Source: Streptantibioticus silvisoli (lineage in GTDB: Bacteria; Actinomycetota; Actinomycetes; Streptomycetales; Streptomycetaceae). Taken from it: DNA of 64,000 bases. Location of the stretch: contig NZ_JAAGKO020000003.1 in NCBI RefSeq assembly GCF_027947535.2, positions 1-64,000 of the forward strand. The letters are read 5' to 3'. A model generated the notes under the pieces. That model ran no database searches, was not told the DNA's origin, and saw only the letters and a list, made by a program, of their open reading frames with translations. Below are positions 6,066-13,903 of this stretch, piece by piece. Positions within the stretch are counted from its first letter, which is position 1. The number at the start of each line of letters is the position of its first letter. Both the position numbers and the translations under genes were made by a program.

Positions 6066-6743
6066 TCACCGGGGGGACCCGCAGACCCCGTTCTCCCAGG
6101 CCCACGCGGCGATCTGGACCCGGTTGCGGAGTCCCAGCCGGCGCTGGACGCTGCCCAGGTGGGTCTTGACGGTGGACAGCGTGACGTAGAGCGCGGCGGC
6201 GACCTCGTCGTTGGTGAGGCCGCGCGCGACGAGCCGGACAACGTCGAGTTCGCGCCGCGTCAGCGGTTCGGCGGCCGGAGCGGAACGGTCCCGCGGCGCG
6301 GCGGGGCCGGGGCGGCCGGGGGCCAGGTGGGCGAGCAGCCGGACGGTGACGGACGGGGAGATGAGGGAGTTGCCGGCGGCGGCGGCCCGGACCGCCTCGG
6401 TGAGCAGGCCGGGGGCGCCGTCCTTCAGCAGGAAGCCGCACGCGCCGTTGCGCAGGGCCCGGTAGACGTACTCGTCGAGGTCGAAGGTGGTGGCGATGAC
6501 CACGTTCAACGGGTCCTGGACGCCGGGGCCGGCCAGCAGCCGGGTGGCCTCCAGGCCGTCGAGCCGGGGCATCCGGATGTCCAGCAGGCAGACGTCGGGC
6601 CGCAGGCTCCGGGCCTGGCCGACCGCCGACGCGCCGTCCGCGGCCTCGGCGACGACCGACAGGTCCGGCTGGGAGTCGAGGATCATGCGGAACGCCGCGC
6701 GGACCATCTCCTGGTCGTCGGCGATGAGCACCCGGATCGTCAT
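6066..6743 (-). CDS. LuxR/NarL-family response regulator
   Basis: A 225-residue DNA-binding response regulator paired with the sensor kinase just upstream. It starts MTIRVLIADDQ with the acidic pair, has the phospho-acceptor D55 in LLDIRMP, and the conserved FLLKDGAP lysine. The C-terminal LuxR helix-turn-helix reads LTRRELDVVRLVARGLTN followed by LSTVKTHLGSVQRRL. ATG 6743 matches the usual start of homologues. An alternative GTG at 6785 has GAGGGG just upstream and overlaps the kinase stop, so coupled translation from there is possible. Target genes are unknown. Confidence 0.92.
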   Translation of the reverse strand: MTIRVLIADDQEMVRAAFRMILDSQPDLSVVAEAADGASAVGQARSLRPDVCLLDIRMPRLDGLEATRLLAGPGVQDPLNVVIATTFDLDEYVYRALRNGACGFLLKDGAPGLLTEAVRAAAAGNSLISPSVTVRLLAHLAPGRPGPAAPRDRSAPAAEPLTRRELDVVRLVARGLTNDEVAAALYVTLSTVKTHLGSVQRRLGLRNRVQIAAWAWENGVCGSPR

Positions 6744-6771
6744 GTGCCGATGATCGCAGGAGGTGTTCGGG

Positions 6772-8010
6772 TCACCGGACGCCACCGGGCCCCTCGGCCA
6801 GCGGGAGGACGGCCCGGACCCGCCAGCCCCCGTCCTCGGCGGCGCCGGCGGTGACGTGGCCGCCGGCCCGCTCGACGCGTTCGGTCAGGCCGACGAGCCC
6901 GAAGGTCCCCCCAACCGGCAGCTGCCGGGCGGCGGGGGCGGCACGGCCGTCGTCGGTCACCGACACCTCCAGGGTCTCGGACGCGCCGGTGAGCAGGTGG
7001 ACCCGCACCTCGACCCGGGTGGCCCCCGCGGCGTGCCGGTGGACGTTGGTCAGGGACTCGCGGACCACGTCACGGGCGGTGGCGGCGGTCTCCGGCGGCA
7101 GGCGGCGGTCGGCCAGACGCGGGTCGAGGACGAGGGCGGCGGGCGGTCCGGCGGCCGTGAACCGGTCGGTGAGGTCGCGCAGCGCGTCGATGGTGCCGAG
7201 GGGCCGGGTGGCGGCGGGGGCGGCGGTGTCGCGCAGGACGGTCACCATCGCGCGCATCGACGTCATCGCCTCCGAGCCGGCCCGCTCGATCGCGTCCAGC
7301 ATGTCGTCGAGCTGGGCGGGCGACTGCGCGTGGCCGCCGGCGGCGGCGAACCGGGCGGCCTTGGTCCGCACCACGACCGCGGTGATGTGGTGGGCGACGA
7401 AGTCGTGCAACTGCCTTGCGTGCTCCAGTCGTTGGTCCTGCCGGATGGCCTCGGCCCGGCGTTCGCGCACGGTGTCGTACAACCGCAGGCACAATCCGAG
7501 CACCACCGCGAACGGCACCGCGAAGACGACGACCAGGCCGACCATCGGGCCCAGGTCCTCGGCCCGGTCCTGGATGCGCAACGGGATCAGCACGGCGGCC
7601 AGCGCCGGGGCCGCCGCCGTCAGGACCGCGGCCGGCGGCGGCAGCCGGCGCACCGACCGGGCGACCGCCAGCAGCAGCGCGCACAACTCCACCATGCCCG
7701 GGGTGTTCTGCGGGCGCAGCGGCAGCCGGGCCTCCACGACGCTCAGCACCGCCGACGCCGAGGCGGCGGCCACCGCGAGCCGGACGAGGTGGTGGCGCGG
7801 GACGACGAGCGCCGCGACGCACAGCCCACCGGTGAGCACCGCCGCCACCACCACCGGCGGGTAGGGCGCGTTGAGCGCTTCGAGGACGACCAGGGCACCG
7901 GCCAGCACGCAGGCCAGCGCCACCAGCACCTTCCGGGGCCGGGCCAGGGCCGTCAACGACCGGCCCAGGGCCGTGAACGGGGAGGTCGGGGCGGTGAACG
8001 GGGAGGTCAT
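6772..8010 (-). CDS. Sensor histidine kinase (HisKA_3 type)
   Basis: A 412-residue membrane sensor kinase that would phosphorylate the adjacent LuxR regulator. Hydrophobic segments between residues ~27 and 178 suggest about six membrane helices with little extracellular loop, typical of DesK/NarL-type kinases that sense membrane state. The HisKA_3 dimerisation box has H202 in RQLHDFVAHHI. The HATPase domain has VVRESLTNVHRHA (N box) and a late FGLVGLTERV (G box). The N-terminus contains two copies of TSPFTA, a short direct DNA repeat. The kinase and regulator form a two-gene operon with 28 bases or less between them. Confidence 0.92.
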   Translation of the reverse strand: MTSPFTAPTSPFTALGRSLTALARPRKVLVALACVLAGALVVLEALNAPYPPVVVAAVLTGGLCVAALVVPRHHLVRLAVAAASASAVLSVVEARLPLRPQNTPGMVELCALLLAVARSVRRLPPPAAVLTAAAPALAAVLIPLRIQDRAEDLGPMVGLVVVFAVPFAVVLGLCLRLYDTVRERRAEAIRQDQRLEHARQLHDFVAHHITAVVVRTKAARFAAAGGHAQSPAQLDDMLDAIERAGSEAMTSMRAMVTVLRDTAAPAATRPLGTIDALRDLTDRFTAAGPPAALVLDPRLADRRLPPETAATARDVVRESLTNVHRHAAGATRVEVRVHLLTGASETLEVSVTDDGRAAPAARQLPVGGTFGLVGLTERVERAGGHVTAGAAEDGGWRVRAVLPLAEGPGGVR

Positions 8011-8138: not shown

Positions 8139-9134
8139 TCAGAAGACCCGGATCGGCGTCTCGGCGGGGTCGGTGAGCAGGCTCTCGATCTCGTCGTCCA
8201 GCCGTACCAGGGTGATGGACGCGCCGGCCATGTCGAGCGAGGTGCAGTACTCGCCGACGTAGGAGCGGTGGATGTCGATGCCGCGTTCGGTGAGCTGCTG
8301 GTGGGCGAGTCCGTGGACGAGGTACAGCTCGCTGATCGGTGTGCCGCCGAGGCCGTTGACCATCAGGGCGACGCCGTCACCGGAGGCGTAGGGCAGGTCG
8401 TCGACGACGGCGGTGACCAGTTCGGCGACCATCTCGTCGGCCGACTGGAGCTTCTCGCGCTTGCGGCCGGGTTCGCCGTGGATGCCGACGCCCATCTCGA
8501 TCTCGTCGTCGGGCAGTTCGAACAGCGGGGAGCCCTTGGCCGGCGGTGTGCAGGCGGTGAGGGCCATGCCCATGGTGCGGGTGACCGAGTTGACCTTCTC
8601 GCCGATCCGGTGCACCTCGTCGAGGCCGGCACCGCGTTCGGCCGCCGCGCCGACCGCCTTCATGACGAAGAAGTTGCCGGCCACCCCGCGGCGCCCGACG
8701 GTGTACGTCGAGTCCTGCACGGAGACGTCGTCGTCGACGTACAGCGTGCGCACCTCGACGTCGTCGGCCTGCGCGAGCTCCTCGGCCATCTCGAACGCCA
8801 TCCGGTCGCCGGTGTAGTTGTTGACCAGCAGCAGGACGCCCCGGGGGGAGGCGACCAGCTTGACCGTCTCGTAGACGTAGTCGGCGGGCGGCGCGGAGAA
8901 GACGTCGCCGGGGCAGGCGGCGTCCAGCATGCCCTTGCCGACGCACATCACGTGGGCCGGTTCGTGACCGGAGCCGGACCCCTGGACGACGGAGACCTTG
9001 TCCGGCCGCGGGGCGCCGGCCCGCATGATCAGGTTGTGGCGCGGCTCGTACGTGAGGGTGTCGGGGTTGGCCAGCGCCAGCCCCCGCAGCATCTCGGGGA
9101 CGAAGTTCTTCGGATCGTTGACGAACTTCTTCAT
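8139..9134 (-). CDS. dhaK: Dihydroxyacetone kinase subunit DhaK
   Basis: The dihydroxyacetone-binding subunit of a two-subunit DHA kinase, cytosolic, making DHAP together with DhaL. The product has 331 residues with GSGSGHEPAH at 52-61, and H219 in GVGIHGEPG at the position of the histidine that binds the substrate carbonyl in the family. It is the last gene of a four-gene operon (aldolase, HAD phosphatase, dhaL, dhaK), 63 bases after dhaL. No dhaM phosphotransferase gene is visible nearby, so the phosphoryl donor cannot be decided here. Some actinobacterial members of this family phosphorylate erythrulose rather than DHA. Confidence 0.93.
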   Translation of the reverse strand: MKKFVNDPKNFVPEMLRGLALANPDTLTYEPRHNLIMRAGAPRPDKVSVVQGSGSGHEPAHVMCVGKGMLDAACPGDVFSAPPADYVYETVKLVASPRGVLLLVNNYTGDRMAFEMAEELAQADDVEVRTLYVDDDVSVQDSTYTVGRRGVAGNFFVMKAVGAAAERGAGLDEVHRIGEKVNSVTRTMGMALTACTPPAKGSPLFELPDDEIEMGVGIHGEPGRKREKLQSADEMVAELVTAVVDDLPYASGDGVALMVNGLGGTPISELYLVHGLAHQQLTERGIDIHRSYVGEYCTSLDMAGASITLVRLDDEIESLLTDPAETPIRVF

Positions 9135-9197: not shown

Positions 9198-9851
9198 TCA
9201 CGGGCGCGCCGGCCAGGTGTCGGCGACGCGTTCCGCCATGACGGCGACCGCCACCGCGCCGGCGTCCGGCGAGCCGATGCTGCGCTCGCCGGTGTAGCTG
9301 GGCCGGCCGCGCAGCGCCTGCATCGAGGTGGTGGCGTCGGCGGCGGTGCGGGCGGCGGACGCGGCGGTCCTGGCCAGGGCGGCCGGGTCGGCGGACCGCG
9401 GCCCGCCGGCGTCGACCGCCTGCTCCAGCGCGTCGGTCATCGGGATCAGCGCGTCCAGCAGGGTCTTGTCGCCCAGGTCGGAGCGGCCGCGGGTCTTGAT
9501 GCCCTCGGCGGCGGCGCGCAGCATGGCCACGGCGTCCCGGCCGGTCAGGTCGGTCCGCCCGCCCAGCGCCGCGGCCGCCCGCAGGAACGCGGTGCCCCAC
9601 AGCGGTCCCGAGGTGCCGCCGACGCGCAGGGAGATCACCAGGGCCACCTTCTTCAGGAACGCCGCCGGGGTCGCGCGGTCGAAGGTCTCCCAGTCGGCGA
9701 GCACGATCTCGAAGCCGCGGGCGAGCGAGTAGCCGAAGTCCCCGTCGCCGACGACGGCGTCGAGGTCGCAGAACTCGCGTTCGTTGGCGACGGCGGTGCC
9801 GGCGATGGTGTGGACGACGAACTCCAGGTCCTGGTCGGTTGTCTTCTGCAT
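9198..9851 (-). CDS. dhaL: Dihydroxyacetone kinase subunit DhaL
   Basis: The nucleotide-binding subunit of DHA kinase, 217 residues. It carries the metal-ADP motif DAVVGDGDFG with D31, D36 and D38 matching the three aspartates of the family. The phosphate-contact strand LRVGGTSGPLWG follows, with MQALRGRPSYTGERSIGSPDAGA near the C-terminus. It follows the HAD gene by about 20 bases and precedes dhaK. Together they would phosphorylate a small ketose released by the upstream aldolase. Confidence 0.93.
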   Translation of the reverse strand: MQKTTDQDLEFVVHTIAGTAVANEREFCDLDAVVGDGDFGYSLARGFEIVLADWETFDRATPAAFLKKVALVISLRVGGTSGPLWGTAFLRAAAALGGRTDLTGRDAVAMLRAAAEGIKTRGRSDLGDKTLLDALIPMTDALEQAVDAGGPRSADPAALARTAASAARTAADATTSMQALRGRPSYTGERSIGSPDAGAVAVAVMAERVADTWPARP

Positions 9852-9871: not shown

Positions 9872-10675
9872 TCAGTCCGGTCCCGCGGTGGGGGCCGTGA
9901 GCAGGAAGGCGAGGTCGGCGAGCGTCACGTAGGAGCCGGGGCGGATCCGCGACGGGTCGCTGAGTACCTCGGCCGCGCTCCCGTCGGGGCCGGGGTCGCC
10001 GAGGGTGGAGACGACCAGCGCCGCGCCGGTGAAGTCCTCGTCGGCGGTGTAGGCGCTGGTGGTGACGACGCAGCCGAGTCCGGCGTCGAGCGCGGCCCGC
10101 ATCCCGTTGTGGCTGTCCTCGATCACCACGGCGTGCGAACGGTCCACGTCGAGGTGGTCCACGGCGTACTCGTAGATGTCGGGAGCCGGCTTCTTGCGCG
10201 GCACCACGTCACCGGCGAACACGCTGAAGCGGGCGGCGAGTTCGGCTCCCATGGCCAGGTCGAGCACGCTGTGCACGGCGGCCTGCGCCGAGGTGGAGGC
10301 GACGGCCAGCGTCCAGCCCTCGGCGGCGGCCTGCGCGGCGATCCGCCGCACGCCGGGGCGCGGCGGGACGGCGCCGCTCGCGATGATCCCGGTGTAGATC
10401 TCGGTCTTGCGCCGGTGCCAGCGGGCGACCTCGGCGTCCAGCGCCGCGGGGTCCTCGGGCAGTCCGGCCCCGGCGACGAACTGCGGGGTCAGCAGGGCCC
10501 GCATGCGCTCCTTGCCGCCGCCGACCTTGACCAGCCGCGCGTAGTCGCGGTCGCTCCAGCGCACCGGCAGGCCGAACTCCTCGAAGGTCCGGTTGAACGC
10601 GGGCAGGTGTCCGTCGCGCTCGGTGTCGGCCAGCACGCCGTCGCAGTCGAAGACCAGGGCGGGCACCGCCGTCAC
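9872..10675 (-). CDS. HAD phosphatase, CbbY-like
   Basis: A 267-residue haloacid-dehalogenase-fold phosphatase. FDCDGVLADTE at residues 9-19 holds the nucleophile D10 and acid D12. The cap has the VGGGKER signature (residues 51-57) found in CbbY, the xylulose-1,5-bisphosphate phosphatase, rather than in phosphoglycolate phosphatases. VASTS and RKKPAPDIY supply motifs II and III, and IEDSHNGM motif IV. GTG 10675 overlaps the aldolase stop by four bases (GTGA), which indicates translational coupling. In this operon it may remove a dead-end or intermediate sugar (bis)phosphate. Confidence 0.9.
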   Translation of the reverse strand: MTAVPALVFDCDGVLADTERDGHLPAFNRTFEEFGLPVRWSDRDYARLVKVGGGKERMRALLTPQFVAGAGLPEDPAALDAEVARWHRRKTEIYTGIIASGAVPPRPGVRRIAAQAAAEGWTLAVASTSAQAAVHSVLDLAMGAELAARFSVFAGDVVPRKKPAPDIYEYAVDHLDVDRSHAVVIEDSHNGMRAALDAGLGCVVTTSAYTADEDFTGAALVVSTLGDPGPDGSAAEVLSDPSRIRPGSYVTLADLAFLLTAPTAGPD

Positions 10676-11532
10676 CGGCCCCGGCCCGCGCTGCCGAACA
10701 ACGTCATCAAGGAGCCGCTCAGGCCCATGACGTCGTCGCGCACCGCCCGGAACAGCGACGGCGGATCCCACTTCTGCTCGCGGGCGGCGGTTTCCAGGAA
10801 GACCAGGTTCGCCTTCATGAACGTCTCCTTCAGGGCGGTGGAGATGTTGACCTTGGCGCAGCCGCGGGCGATGAGGTCGCGGAACTGCTCGTCGGACAGG
10901 CCGCTGCCGCCGTGCAGCGCGATGGGCAGCGGGTGGGCCGCCACCAGGTCCGAGACACGGTCGGCGTCGAGCACGGGTGCCCGTTTGTAGCTGCCGTGCG
11001 CGTTGCCGATGGCGGGGGCGAAGACGTCGACCCCGGTGGTCTCCAGGAACTCCAGCGCCACGTCCAGGTCCTGCTGGGCGGCGGCGCGGTCGCTGCCGAC
11101 GCCGTCCTCGACGCCGGTGATGGACTCGATCTCCCCCTCGACGTGGGCGCCGTGCGCGCGCGCCTCGGCGACGACCTCGACGGTCTGCCGCATGTTCTCC
11201 TCCACCGGCAGCCGCGAGGCGTCGAACAGCACCGAGTTCCAGCCGAGGCCCAGGCACTCGGTGATGACCTCGCGGTCCGGGCAGTGGTCCAGGTGCAGGG
11301 CGACGGGCACCTCGATCCCGGCGGTCATCGCCTTCCACAGCGCGTAGAACGTCGCACCGCCGACCGACCTGACCGTCTTGACGGACGTCTGCACGATCAG
11401 CGGTGAGGAGCGGTCGACGGCGGCGGCCAGGACGCCTTCCAGCGTGAGGTCGTTGAACACGTTGATGGCCGGCACGCCGTACCGTTCCTTGAACGCGCCG
11501 GACAGGATGTCGGTCAGCGGTACGACAGGCAC
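10672..11532 (-). CDS. Class II (zinc) ketose-bisphosphate aldolase
   Basis: A 286-residue class II aldolase, closer to the KbaY/GatY and FbaA-like group that releases DHAP. It shows PAINVFNDLTLEG at the substrate end, the catalytic/zinc HLDHCPD, EGEIESITGVEDG, the AIGNAHGSYK zinc histidine and ALHGGSGLSD. GTG 11532 is preceded by GGGAG at five bases. It is the first gene of the operon that continues with the CbbY-like phosphatase, dhaL and dhaK. Its true substrate is not decidable: fructose-, tagatose- or a shorter ketose phosphate are all possible, and the company of DHA kinase suggests a catabolic rather than glycolytic role. Confidence 0.88.
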   Translation of the reverse strand: MPVVPLTDILSGAFKERYGVPAINVFNDLTLEGVLAAAVDRSSPLIVQTSVKTVRSVGGATFYALWKAMTAGIEVPVALHLDHCPDREVITECLGLGWNSVLFDASRLPVEENMRQTVEVVAEARAHGAHVEGEIESITGVEDGVGSDRAAAQQDLDVALEFLETTGVDVFAPAIGNAHGSYKRAPVLDADRVSDLVAAHPLPIALHGGSGLSDEQFRDLIARGCAKVNISTALKETFMKANLVFLETAAREQKWDPPSLFRAVRDDVMGLSGSLMTLFGSAGRGR

Positions 11533-11851
11533 GTGGACTCCCGGGATCGATGGCGTCGTGCGGGGCCGGTTACGCCTTGCCCCATCGACGCTAACGGGCG
11601 CCGGCGCGCGCGTCGGGCGGGATCGTCCCCATCTCGCGGTAGGGAATCCCCCTACGGTTGCGGGGGGCGGGTTGCGGTTGCGGGTTGCCGGCGGGTTGCG
11701 GTTGCGGGTTCGGCGGCCTGCTGCGACGGGTTGCGGACGCCGGACCACGGGTTACGGGCCGTGGGCGCCGAGCCACCGGCCGTGGGCGCCGTCGGACCCC
11801 GCGCGACGAGCCGTGGACACCGGCCCCGGGCCTCGCCGCTGCCCCGCCGGG
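11533..11851. repeat. Intergenic region with GGGTTGCGGTTGC repeats
   Basis: About 320 bases between the aldolase start and the 3' end of the fused kinase, both on the minus strand. The aldolase operon promoter should be here. Bases 11660-11745 carry several imperfect copies of a GGGTTGCGGTTGC unit, and 11758-11795 repeats CCGTGGGCGCCG. No gene seen. Confidence 0.6.
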
Positions 11852-13903
11852 TCAGTGGCCCTGGCGGGCCGCGCGGTGGGCCACGGCGGTGCGGTTGGGG
11901 GCGCCGGTCTTGCGCAGGACCGCGCCAACGTGTTTCTCCACGGTCTTGACGGAGATCCCCAGCGCGGTGGCGATCCGCTTGTCCGGCAGGCCGCGTTCCA
12001 CCAGCGCGCTCACCTCCCGCTCCCGGCAGGTGAGCGGGTCGGGGCCCGGGTGGTCCCGGTCGGCGAAGCCTCGCAGCACGCGTTCGGTCAGCAGGACGTC
12101 GCCACGGGTGGCGGCGAGCACCGAGCGGACCAGTCCGGGGCCGTCGAGGTCGGAGCCGACGCAGCCGCGCGCGCCGGCGTGCACGGCTTCCTTCAGCAGT
12201 TCGTCGCCGAGGTCGTCGGTCATCACCAGCACCGCGGTCTCCGGGCTGGCGGAGCGGATGTAGGACGTCAGCCGGGCGCCGTCCAGCCCCGGCATCCGCA
12301 GGTCCAGCAGGACGACGTCGGGGCCCAACTCGCGTACCGCCGGCACGACCTGCCGGGCGTCGTCGATCTCACCCACCACGTGGATCTCCGGTTCGGCCCC
12401 CGCCAGCAGCCGCGCCAGCCCGGCCCGCACCACCGGCCGCCGGTCGACGACCAGCACCCGCCAGGGCGTGGCCGGACCGGCCGGGCCCCGCGGTCCCGCC
12501 GCGTACGGGATGCGGGCCCGTATCCGGGTGCCCCAGCCCGGGGTGGACTCGATCCGCAGGTCGGCGCCGAACTGCCCGGCCCGCGCGACCAGGCCGGTCA
12601 GGCCCGTTCCGCCGCGCCGCACGCCCGCGTCGGCCGGGTCGAAGCCGCGCCCGTCGTCCTCGACGACGACGGCCAGCTCGTCCGCGTCGTACATCACGCC
12701 CACCCGCACGAGCCGGGCGCGGGCGTGGGCGACGACGTTGGTCAGCGCCTCCTGGACCAGCCGCAGCGCGTGGGCCGCGGCGCCGGGCGCCGTCGGGCGG
12801 CGGTCGCCGGTGACCACCAGGTCCGTCCGGACGCCGGCCGTGGAACGCACCCAGGCCAGTTCGGCGCCGATGGCCTCGTCGAGCGAACCCAGTTCCAGCA
12901 GCGCGGGGTCCAGGCCCAGCACGGTCCGGCGGGTCTCGGTCAGCGCGGCGCGGGCCGCCGCGCGGGCGGCTTCGAGCCGGGGTGCCCGGCCGGGGACCTC
13001 CAGCGCGTCGATGTGCGCCAGGATCGAGCCGAGCGCGCGGGCCACGGTGTCGTGGACGTCGCGCGCCACGCGTTCGCGCTCGGCGCCGACGGCGAGGCGG
13101 CGGGCCCGGTCCTCGGCCTCCTGGTGCAGTCGCGCGTTGGTGATGGCGATGGCGGCGTGCTTGGCGAACACGTCCAGCAGCTCGACGTCCTGCGTGCCGA
13201 ACCGGGTCAGCGGGTCGGTGCTGAAGACGACGCACACGCCGATGATCTCCTCGCGCCATTCGATCGGCACCGCGACGGTGGCGTGCAGCCGCTCGCGGTC
13301 GGCGGTGCCGACGTGGCCGCCGGGCACCTCGGCGTAACTGTCGAAGACCCGCGGCCCGCGCCGCGCCACCACGGCCCCCGTCGCCCCCTCGGCCAGCGGG
13401 AAGACGGTGCCCTCCTGGCATCCGACGCCGAGGTCGGCCTCCTTGCGGTACGTGCCGGCCTTCTCGTCGACGGTGCTGATCGAACCGGCGCCGGCGCCCA
13501 GCAGGCTCACCGCCCGCCGCAGGATCCGGTGCAGCAGCGGCTGGAGCGCGAACTGCCCCGCCAGGTCCTCCACGGCACCGGTCAACGCGTCGACCTGCGC
13601 GTTCGGACTCGTCCGGGGGGCCGCCGCGCGCGGGGCGCTGTCGCGGGATGCCGGGGCCACGGTGCCCGGGGCGCTGTCGCGGGCCGCCGGGGCCACGATC
13701 CGTTCGCGGTCCGCCGGGCCCTCTGCGTCCGTGACGTTGTCGCGGGCCGCCGGGGCCACTGCTCCGCCCGCGATCCGGCCGCGGTCCGCAGCCTCCGCGT
13801 TCGCACGGCGGCCCGCGTTCGCGGCACGATCCGGGTTCGCACGGCGGCCCGCGTTCGCGGCACGGCCCGCGACGGCGCTCACCGCGCGGCCGGCGTCACG
13901 CAT
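11852..13903 (-). CDS. GAF-histidine kinase-receiver-LuxR fusion regulator
   Basis: One 683-residue chain holds a complete two-component pathway. Residues 1-100 are a repetitive Ala/Arg/Pro tail. A GAF domain spans ~105-265, a HisKA_3 box has H284 in RDVHDTVA, and the HATPase domain (~375-465) has VQEALTNVVAHA and DDGRGFDP. A receiver domain (~482-600) has D534 in LLDLRMPGLDG, and a LuxR helix-turn-helix (~622-680) has LTCREREVSALVERGLPD. The receiver lacks two usual residues: the acidic pair is D487-R488 and the conserved lysine strand reads GCVGS. No membrane segment is seen. It probably senses a cytosolic ligand through GAF and binds DNA directly. The start at 13903 has only a weak ribosome site. 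Confidence 0.88.
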   Translation of the reverse strand: MRDAGRAVSAVAGRAANAGRRANPDRAANAGRRANAEAADRGRIAGGAVAPAARDNVTDAEGPADRERIVAPAARDSAPGTVAPASRDSAPRAAAPRTSPNAQVDALTGAVEDLAGQFALQPLLHRILRRAVSLLGAGAGSISTVDEKAGTYRKEADLGVGCQEGTVFPLAEGATGAVVARRGPRVFDSYAEVPGGHVGTADRERLHATVAVPIEWREEIIGVCVVFSTDPLTRFGTQDVELLDVFAKHAAIAITNARLHQEAEDRARRLAVGAERERVARDVHDTVARALGSILAHIDALEVPGRAPRLEAARAAARAALTETRRTVLGLDPALLELGSLDEAIGAELAWVRSTAGVRTDLVVTGDRRPTAPGAAAHALRLVQEALTNVVAHARARLVRVGVMYDADELAVVVEDDGRGFDPADAGVRRGGTGLTGLVARAGQFGADLRIESTPGWGTRIRARIPYAAGPRGPAGPATPWRVLVVDRRPVVRAGLARLLAGAEPEIHVVGEIDDARQVVPAVRELGPDVVLLDLRMPGLDGARLTSYIRSASPETAVLVMTDDLGDELLKEAVHAGARGCVGSDLDGPGLVRSVLAATRGDVLLTERVLRGFADRDHPGPDPLTCREREVSALVERGLPDKRIATALGISVKTVEKHVGAVLRKTGAPNRTAVAHRAARQGH
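13633..13880. repeat. 36-bp coding repeats in the kinase N-terminus
   Basis: Two families of 36-bp direct repeats lie inside the 5' end of the fused kinase gene. One is a unit starting GGGGCGCTGTCGCGGG (13633 onward, about three copies). The other starts GCACGGCGGCCCGCG (~13807 onward, two copies). Thirty-six bases are 12 codons, so the reading frame is kept and the repeats give the APAARDSAPGTV-like and AANAGRRAN-like peptide repeats. Confidence 0.75.

Follow-up and report, generated by a model that had tools for sequence, protein, structure and literature searches.

The window, that is the first 64,000 nucleotides of contig NZ_JAAGKO020000003.1 of Streptantibioticus silvisoli, carries a fused regulator in which a GAF sensor, a HisKA_3 and HATPase kinase, a receiver (REC) and a LuxR-type helix-turn-helix (HTH) domain stand in one chain, beside an operon for an aldolase and dihydroxyacetone (DHA) kinase. 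According to our preferred reading, to which we give a probability of about two in three, the protein is a class II activator driven by the ligand-dependent conformation of its GAF domain, in which phosphotransfer is weakened and dispensable and a pseudo-receiver is kept. Comparison at the level of sequence establishes the family, its synteny, the decay series of its phosphate relay, the shared operator, the geometry towards the -10 element and the joint absence of operator and regulator. In addition, we infer activation itself, the ligand, the phosphate independence of the window protein and the roles of its ATP site and receiver.

The fused regulator and its degenerate receiver

The regulator and its domains lie as follows.
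11852..13903, minus strand: fused regulator GAF-HisKA_3-HATPase-REC-LuxR HTH, with its homologous part from about residue 100 (about 13606)
13130..13546, minus strand: GAF sensor domain, residues 120-258
12902..13081, minus strand: HisKA_3 domain, with H284 at 13052-13054 and R289 at the position which we take to be that of the phosphatase-motif Gln
12503..12772, minus strand: HATPase_c domain, with the ATP-site residues N389, D416, G418 and G420 present
12104..12463, minus strand: degenerate receiver, with D487-R488 (12440-12445), D534 (12302-12304), T562, and S584 for Lys (12152-12154)
11870..12040, minus strand: LuxR/GerE HTH with the TVEKHV helix, which across the family exceeds the other domains in mean pairwise identity

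The regulator frame is uninterrupted and has 683 residues as called, which confirms the open frame of the preliminary description; the strand, which was not stated there, is minus, and the start codon is uncertain. Read on the plus strand, 11852..13903 does not give the regulator protein. The first ~100 codons (window 13606-13903) are, by eye, direct-repeat, low-complexity sequence, and the matches of the two closest relatives start at residues 92 and 80 of the window regulator, so the true start codon may lie downstream of the annotated one. These relatives, L017 (627-codon frame, 82% identity) and L018 (654-codon frame, 76%), are uninterrupted at residues 465-485, where a stop or frameshift had been considered, and no sign of either was seen. 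A sequencing error or chance frame is ruled out, since both are continuous across the kinase-receiver junction. The third closest relative, L019 (68%), has a stop farther upstream, in the part that joins the phospho-His region to the ATPase.

All five domains that had been recognised in the frame score above the Pfam curated cut-offs, namely GAF_2 (E 1.8e-12), HisKA_3 (1.2e-8), HATPase_c (4.4e-10), Response_reg (1.4e-18) and GerE (4.2e-12), and the predicted domain folds are confident (mean predicted local distance difference test, pLDDT, 87.6). The kinase part possesses both the phospho-accepting His, which is H284 as described before, and an intact ATP site. The receiver residues likewise agree with the earlier account, with D534 kept, DR (D487-R488) in place of the acidic pair and S584 at the Lys position, while T562 is retained at the Thr/Ser position; the canonical set of acidic pair, Asp, Thr/Ser and Lys is therefore incomplete. 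In the available part of PMC12632262, a pseudo-receiver is defined as a domain that is recognised as a receiver and from which key phosphotransfer residues are absent. The window receiver fits this definition, being recognised by Response_reg and missing the Lys and one acid, and is not an aspartate-less receiver, since D534 is present. As in one-component regulators, sensor and DNA-binding domain (GAF and GerE) share one chain, and unlike in a NarL-type two-component system, which has a HisKA_3 kinase plus a LuxR regulator, kinase and regulator form a single protein.

After removal of duplicates, 115 distinct loci were available, the window included. The regulator was found at 96 of the other 114, while none is seen at 18. 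Among the 96 loci, 79 encode it full-length in one frame, seven encode a GAF-HTH form, three have a wrecked kinase and receiver, two are without the kinase but with the receiver, four are interrupted by stops or shifts, and one is cut by the stretch end. The earlier statement that related systems usually comprise two genes applies to the paralogues of the own genome, where each of the 40 other matches either fails to cover both kinase and HTH or contains an internal stop, and where the uninterrupted matches containing the HTH begin at query residue 428 or later, but not to the orthologues. The fused form is thus unusual in its own genome, yet it is the norm in the actinobacterial family to which it belongs, which rules out that the window gene is an isolated case of two genes joined together. 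In L083 (1593-3494, a Cellulomonas metagenome-assembled genome, MAG), two overlapping frames encode GAF-kinase-ATPase and receiver-HTH, which might be a split pair or a frameshift. As well, the regulator frames of L019, L024, L085 and L088 contain a stop or shift or are truncated, which might reflect decay or sequencing error.

Decay of the phosphate relay across the family

Relay residues were counted in 80 full-length proteins including that of the window, with the interrupted L019, L024, L083 and L085 left out. The Lys is kept in 5 of them, the acidic pair in 7, the Asp in 47 and the His in 76; two receivers, those of L096 (Thermoleophilia bacterium) and L186, are canonical and 78 are not. 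The phospho-Asp is lost in 33 of the 80 and the phospho-His in four, all of which are also without the Asp, so that the His is retained in 29 of 33 Asp-less proteins and in all 47 Asp-bearing ones. N389, D416, G418 and G420 are present in 80/80, including the four without His, and Arg occupies the phosphatase-motif Gln position in 67. For comparison, the published background given in the accessible part of PMC12632262 is 2.0% of receivers lacking the Asp and 0.3% of HisKA_3 domains lacking the His. The losses tend to follow an order, but not strictly: in L055 the Lys is present although both Asp and His are gone, and in L042 the acidic pair stands beside a Glu in place of the Asp.

The pooled ratio of nonsynonymous to synonymous substitution rates (dN/dS) of the receiver was 0.168 in 8 close pairs without the Asp and 0.145 in 13 pairs with it, after 13 of 34 pairs had been removed by hand (12 with dN > 0.2, plus L075/L057, which could have been retained with a receiver dN/dS of 0.16). 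Because the pooled ratio is low with and without the Asp, the Asp-less receiver is, judged from its substitutions, still under selection and not drifting. This bears on the idea that receiver and kinase are functionless, drifting remnants heading for deletion, which would agree with the repeated losses on the regulator tree described below and with the debris between GAF and HTH in L177 and L185. However, the low ratios hold for both receiver and kinase, the ATP-site residues are present in every full-length protein and the domains are predicted to fold confidently, so we regard functionless remnants as improbable.

The scan of genome contigs with the fused protein, of which the best 80 of 109 loci were retained, favours full-length fused forms. 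A second sampling by the neighbouring aldolase (at least 60% identity), which is not biased toward full-length regulators, gave 40 operon-anchored stretches, L148-L187. The regulator is seen to its end in 31 of these and comprises 20 full forms (one with a stop), three wrecked, one kinase-less and seven GAF-HTH forms, the relay being lost or wrecked in 11 of the 31; the other nine stretches have no regulator or a partial one in view. In five of the short forms (L150, L152, L162, L158, which is the L091 locus, and L161) the GAF-to-HTH linker has ~9-40 residues, while L177 and L185 contain ~130 residues of debris that are ATPase-like by eye.

On a regulator tree built from GAF plus HTH (76 rows, IQ-TREE, with 16 close relatives and the cut L159 removed), the GAF-HTH state requires three changes, and loss or wreckage of the kinase five. 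The approximately unbiased (AU) test rejects a tree in which all seven GAF-HTH proteins form one clade (p 0.003), but not one that unites L161 with the four other short forms of its group (p 0.146). In the operon tree the short L161 is the sister of the full-length L155 at 0.994. From the rejected seven-member clade and the L161/L155 placement, at least two independent losses are supported on these trees, and three would be the most parsimonious number. The root is uncertain, since midpoint rooting, used for drawing only, places the long-branched L177 and L185 outermost. This placement, together with the occurrence of short forms in several lineages, might be taken to mean that GAF-HTH is ancestral and that the kinase-receiver block was inserted later. 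However, the rejection of one clade of seven, the sister placement of L161 and L155, the canonical forms L096 and L186 lying outside the group of L150, L152, L162, L091 and L161, and the ATPase-like remnants in L177 and L185 all oppose such an insertion (although a clade of the five short forms of one group is not rejected), and we find it hardly credible. Polarity from full to short is instead suggested by the canonical forms outside the five-member group and by those remnants.

The GAF core is conserved through all regulator forms, and the full, wrecked and minimal ones also have an HTH helix in common. Y152, K154, C162 and H197 are present in 92, 92, 92 and 93 of 93 aligned rows, that is, in every regulator with a residue at the position. 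The GAF fold (L091 model, mean pLDDT 90.2) resembles those of ptsP, PDE10A and DosS/DosT. A heme GAF like that of DosS was considered and set aside, as only the fold is shared and no heme ligand was identified.

Operator, promoter and proposed mechanism

The elements before the aldolase gene and the genes of the operon, which lie downstream of the regulator on the same strand, are the following.
11638..11655, minus strand: distal operator GTAGGGGGATTCCCTACC, score 16.6
11615..11632, minus strand: proximal operator ATGGGGACGATCCCGCCC with a score of 7.0, centred at about -42.5 relative to the predicted transcription start
11588..11593, minus strand: -10-like TAGCGT, 21 bp after the proximal operator
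10672..11532, minus strand: class II fructose-bisphosphate-aldolase family gene with GTG start, the predicted first target gene
9872..10675, minus strand: HAD hydrolase, beta-phosphoglucomutase-like, start approximate
9198..9851, minus strand: DhaL, dihydroxyacetone kinase subunit, TIGR02365 over cut-off
8139..9134, minus strand: DhaK, dihydroxyacetone kinase subunit, TIGR02363 over cut-off

A palindrome with the model consensus GTGGGGGAATTCCCCCAC, and GGTAGGGAAACCCCCCAT as the commonest site at short-form loci, recurs in the aldolase promoters. In a set of 100 promoters, from which aldolase matches below 60% identity had been removed, 95 have an operator above the 99th percentile of 426 background windows, a count which is descriptive because the matrix was trained on the same promoters and the cut-offs were set post hoc. 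The operator is common to full, wrecked, kinase-less and GAF-HTH loci, all seven of the latter included. A TANNNT element follows 21-23 bp past the proximal site in 81 of the 100 promoters, compared with a mean of 0.2 and a maximum of 1 in letter shuffles (30 shuffles, self-chosen score cut-off 3); an earlier, stricter count gave 68/95. In the window promoter, the predicted site lies over the -35 region at fixed spacing to the -10 element, as in DevR-type class II activators.

Four promoters, those of L149, L153, L163 and L171, are operator-less (best scores 5.2 and below), and no match to the family GAF domain (E <= 1e-5) was found in their four genomes, one of which is only 86% complete. The same search gave a match in four comparison genomes, although that of G770 is only 36% identical. 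Operator and regulator are jointly absent in these four genomes.

Across the 100 loci of the family, 145 sites score above 12.5, of which 123 stand before the aldolase, 11 before the regulator and 11 elsewhere. Operator-like sites of this score upstream of the regulator occur at L035, L036, L042, L043, L044, L052, L056, L058, L073 and L074, and their position suggests autoregulation at these 10 loci. Further regulon targets are not claimed, as operator matches in the own genome are outnumbered by those in the reversed control.

Partner sites (scored at least 0, 21-26 bp away) accompany the operator in 37 of 37 promoters of Asp-bearing receivers, so that single-site promoters number 0/37 where the Asp is kept and 15/34 where the Asp or the receiver is gone. 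At a partner cut-off of 1.5, two sites are seen in 43/45 Asp-bearing and 18/30 Asp-less full forms. Under both cut-offs a second site, though a weak one, is also scored at the GAF-HTH loci L150 and L152. Tree-aware pairing, with five pairs on starred branches only, gave on average 1.2 for, 0 against and 3.8 with no difference. A Fisher test of one or two sites against the Asp (p 0.001) was not used as support, since its counts were entered by hand and it ignores relatedness. According to the part of PMC3029386 available, cooperative binding of DevR to its second site requires the receiver domain. This requirement and the two-site pattern, which depends on the cut-off and leaves too few pairs once relatedness is considered, suggest that the receiver may be retained for cooperativity.

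In our preferred reading, the regulator is a cytoplasmic protein that activates the aldolase-HAD-DhaL-DhaK operon next to it. As a dimer, it would bind one or two palindromes before the aldolase gene, and the proximal one, at about -42.5 over the -35 region, would help RNA polymerase to start (class II activation). The GAF domain would bind a small signal, probably a metabolite of the triose pathway, and the resulting change of conformation would be relayed to the HTH through its long exit helix. Kinase and receiver would descend from a fused NarL-type two-component protein, and their main role now would be the conformational coupling of input and output. The ATP site would be retained as a switch that depends on nucleotide, and the pseudo-receiver as an element of dimerisation or cooperativity, while phosphotransfer would be weakened and dispensable. 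For the GAF-HTH relatives at the same operator, a signal without phosphotransfer is implied.

Several points weigh against this reading. With H284, D534, T562 and the ATP site all in place, the window protein may still carry out weak phosphotransfer. The His survives in 29 of the 33 proteins without the Asp, which points to a continuing role for autophosphorylation or for transfer to another partner. From the GAF-HTH forms it is evident that the relay is dispensable, but not that it is idle where present. Nor is the ATP site permanent, as the three wrecked forms are without N389. On the side of the promoter, apart from the training of the matrix on the counted promoters mentioned above, the in-phase -10 element is seen at 5/7 GAF-HTH loci and is absent at L177 and L185, L154, the fifth promoter below the background percentile, has a full regulator with only a weak site (8.2), and the own genome has 31 operator matches vs 38 in the reversed control, that is, no enrichment. 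The whole-chain model is a monomer with an uncertain domain arrangement (predicted template modelling score, pTM, 0.51).

The same residues could belong to a working two-component relay in one chain, in which the GAF domain controls autophosphorylation of H284, D534 receives the phosphate inside the dimer, and the absence of Lys and acid does no more than shorten or weaken the signal. Such a relay would account for the joint presence of H284, N389, D416, G418, G420, D534 and T562, for the Asp and Thr which the window protein and its four closest relatives (L017, L018, L019 and L033) all retain, and for the His, which is never lost beside a kept Asp; the single-operator promoters found among Asp-less forms and not among Asp-bearing ones also allow that an Asp-bearing receiver acts differently. 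It is opposed by the absence of the Lys and of one metal-binding acid, by the Arg at the phosphatase-motif Gln position and by the relatives without the Asp, without the kinase or without both at the same operator, and we consider it unlikely, if worth keeping in mind. The preliminary description had proposed that phosphotransfer may be altered or replaced by direct conformational control. Across the family this is well supported, given the 78 non-canonical receivers, the 33 lost Asp residues and the seven GAF-HTH relatives, but it is less certain for the window protein, in which H284, the ATP site, D534 and T562 remain.

Beyond the window protein, the preferred reading can be extended to a stepwise conversion from two-component to one-component regulation within one orthologous series. 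The receiver chemistry would be lost first, the phospho-His next, and then kinase and receiver, while operon, operator and promoter geometry are kept; the pseudo-receiver would be kept for cooperative binding at the second operator, and the ATP site would be a nucleotide-dependent switch able to outlast both phosphorylated residues. We put this forward tentatively, at somewhat less than even odds, which are slightly lowered because the order of loss is not strict in L055 and L042.

Known systems and the neighbouring operon

In domain classes, the window regulator is like DosS/DosT-DosR of mycobacteria (DevS-DevR), which has a GAF-HisKA_3-HATPase kinase and a NarL-type regulator. Among proteins of solved structure, DevR gives the best sequence match to the REC-HTH part (3c3w, E 5.6e-24), and the GAF domains of DosS/DosT are among the fold matches of the family GAF. 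However, the mycobacterial system consists of two proteins, its kinases have two GAF domains and its receiver is phosphorylated at Asp54, whereas the window regulator is one chain with one GAF and a degenerate receiver beside another operon. Promoters of DevR, as analysed in the available part of PMC3029386, have close-packed sites with the proximal one over the -35 region.

DhaR of Escherichia coli is built of GAF-PAS-AAA+-Fis domains and of sigma-54 type, while the window regulator is GAF-kinase-receiver-LuxR, has no AAA+ sigma-54 activator domain among its Pfam matches and is not a DhaR member. Hybrid two-component systems of Bacteroidetes also combine a sensor kinase with a receiver and a DNA-binding domain in a single chain, but they are membrane-bound, with AraC-type output and a HisKA kinase; the window regulator has HisKA_3 and a LuxR output, and by eye it shows no membrane segment. 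The likeness to DhaR is functional, as DhaR is described in the consulted part of PMC6643234 as an activator of dhaKLM that answers to DHA, and a title cited there has dihydroxyacetone kinase controlling expression by binding DhaR. According to the same part, DHA is reactive and convertible to methylglyoxal. Because of this reactivity and the response of DhaR, a triose metabolite is a fair guess, and at most that, for the GAF signal.

Pseudo-receivers and aspartate-less receivers, which likewise have the receiver fold without phosphotransfer residues, are an already known kind, and hybrid kinases with a pseudo-receiver, ShkA and CikA, have been described (available parts of PMC12632262 and PMC4395418). 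The same parts contain no DNA-binding chain whose own kinase decays in one orthologous series. As well, the accessible text of a LuxR census of 53 actinobacterial species lists no kinase-receiver-LuxR chain and lacks the words GAF and HisKA (PMC3466318), that of a paper on signalling evolution describes no such conversion from two- to one-component (PMC9239204), and the listings and abstract openings searched in an open-licence library showed no earlier account of the family or the decay series. The 2025 review PMC12632262, in its available part, calls the on/off mechanism of pseudo-receivers the central unanswered question about them. The orthologues of the present family range from a canonical receiver to none beside the same operon and operator, mostly with the same -10 spacing, and therefore one reporter could compare them side by side, which makes pseudo-receiver function directly testable. 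The family also offers a concrete route by which a two-component system may become one-component, and a candidate regulator and operator for the actinobacterial aldolase/dihydroxyacetone kinase operon.

Among the 80 regulator loci, the aldolase is present in the fetched stretch at 75 (73 at 60% identity or more), HAD at 75, DhaL at 70 and DhaK of at least 60% identity at 69. The operon is uncommon, as an aldolase match (E <= 1e-70) was obtained in 7 of 396 genomes drawn across the phylum; in four of these, among them the genome of the window, the match had at least 66% identity. No DhaM was seen among the operon genes searched. Elsewhere in the genome, a DhaM model gave a match in 16 of 18 cases tried, 14 of them over the cut-off, and the own genome stays just below it, with 97.2 against 98.25 bits. 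These matches do not decide the matter of signalling linked to the phosphotransferase system (PTS), which they neither support nor exclude.

A split pair of HisKA_3 kinase and LuxR regulator directly follows DhaK (window 6066-8010, minus strand). With such a pair at hand and the His retained in most Asp-less proteins, the kinase of the fused protein might act in trans and phosphorylate another response regulator, with the receiver of the fused chain serving as no more than a scaffold. However, the kinase of the pair is matched (E <= 1e-10) at only one of the 80 regulator loci (L053, 32%), and the kinase-less GAF-HTH forms still have operator and operon, so action in trans is very improbable.

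Finally, some loci differ from the usual arrangement. At L035, L036, L056, L063, L156 and L185 the best DhaK match is ~38-39% identical, a different DhaK type having replaced or joined the usual one. L188 (compare L189-L191) has the same operon, with an aldolase 57-60% identical, and no family regulator was found there; a regulator that is SorC/DeoR-like by eye stands directly upstream instead. The contigs of L064 and L085, titled Vibrio cholerae strain 35D, carry an Arthrobacter-like regulator, and the assembly is probably mislabelled or contaminated. In L059 (7983-10766, a Propionicimonas MAG), regulator and aldolase form one frame of 927 codons.

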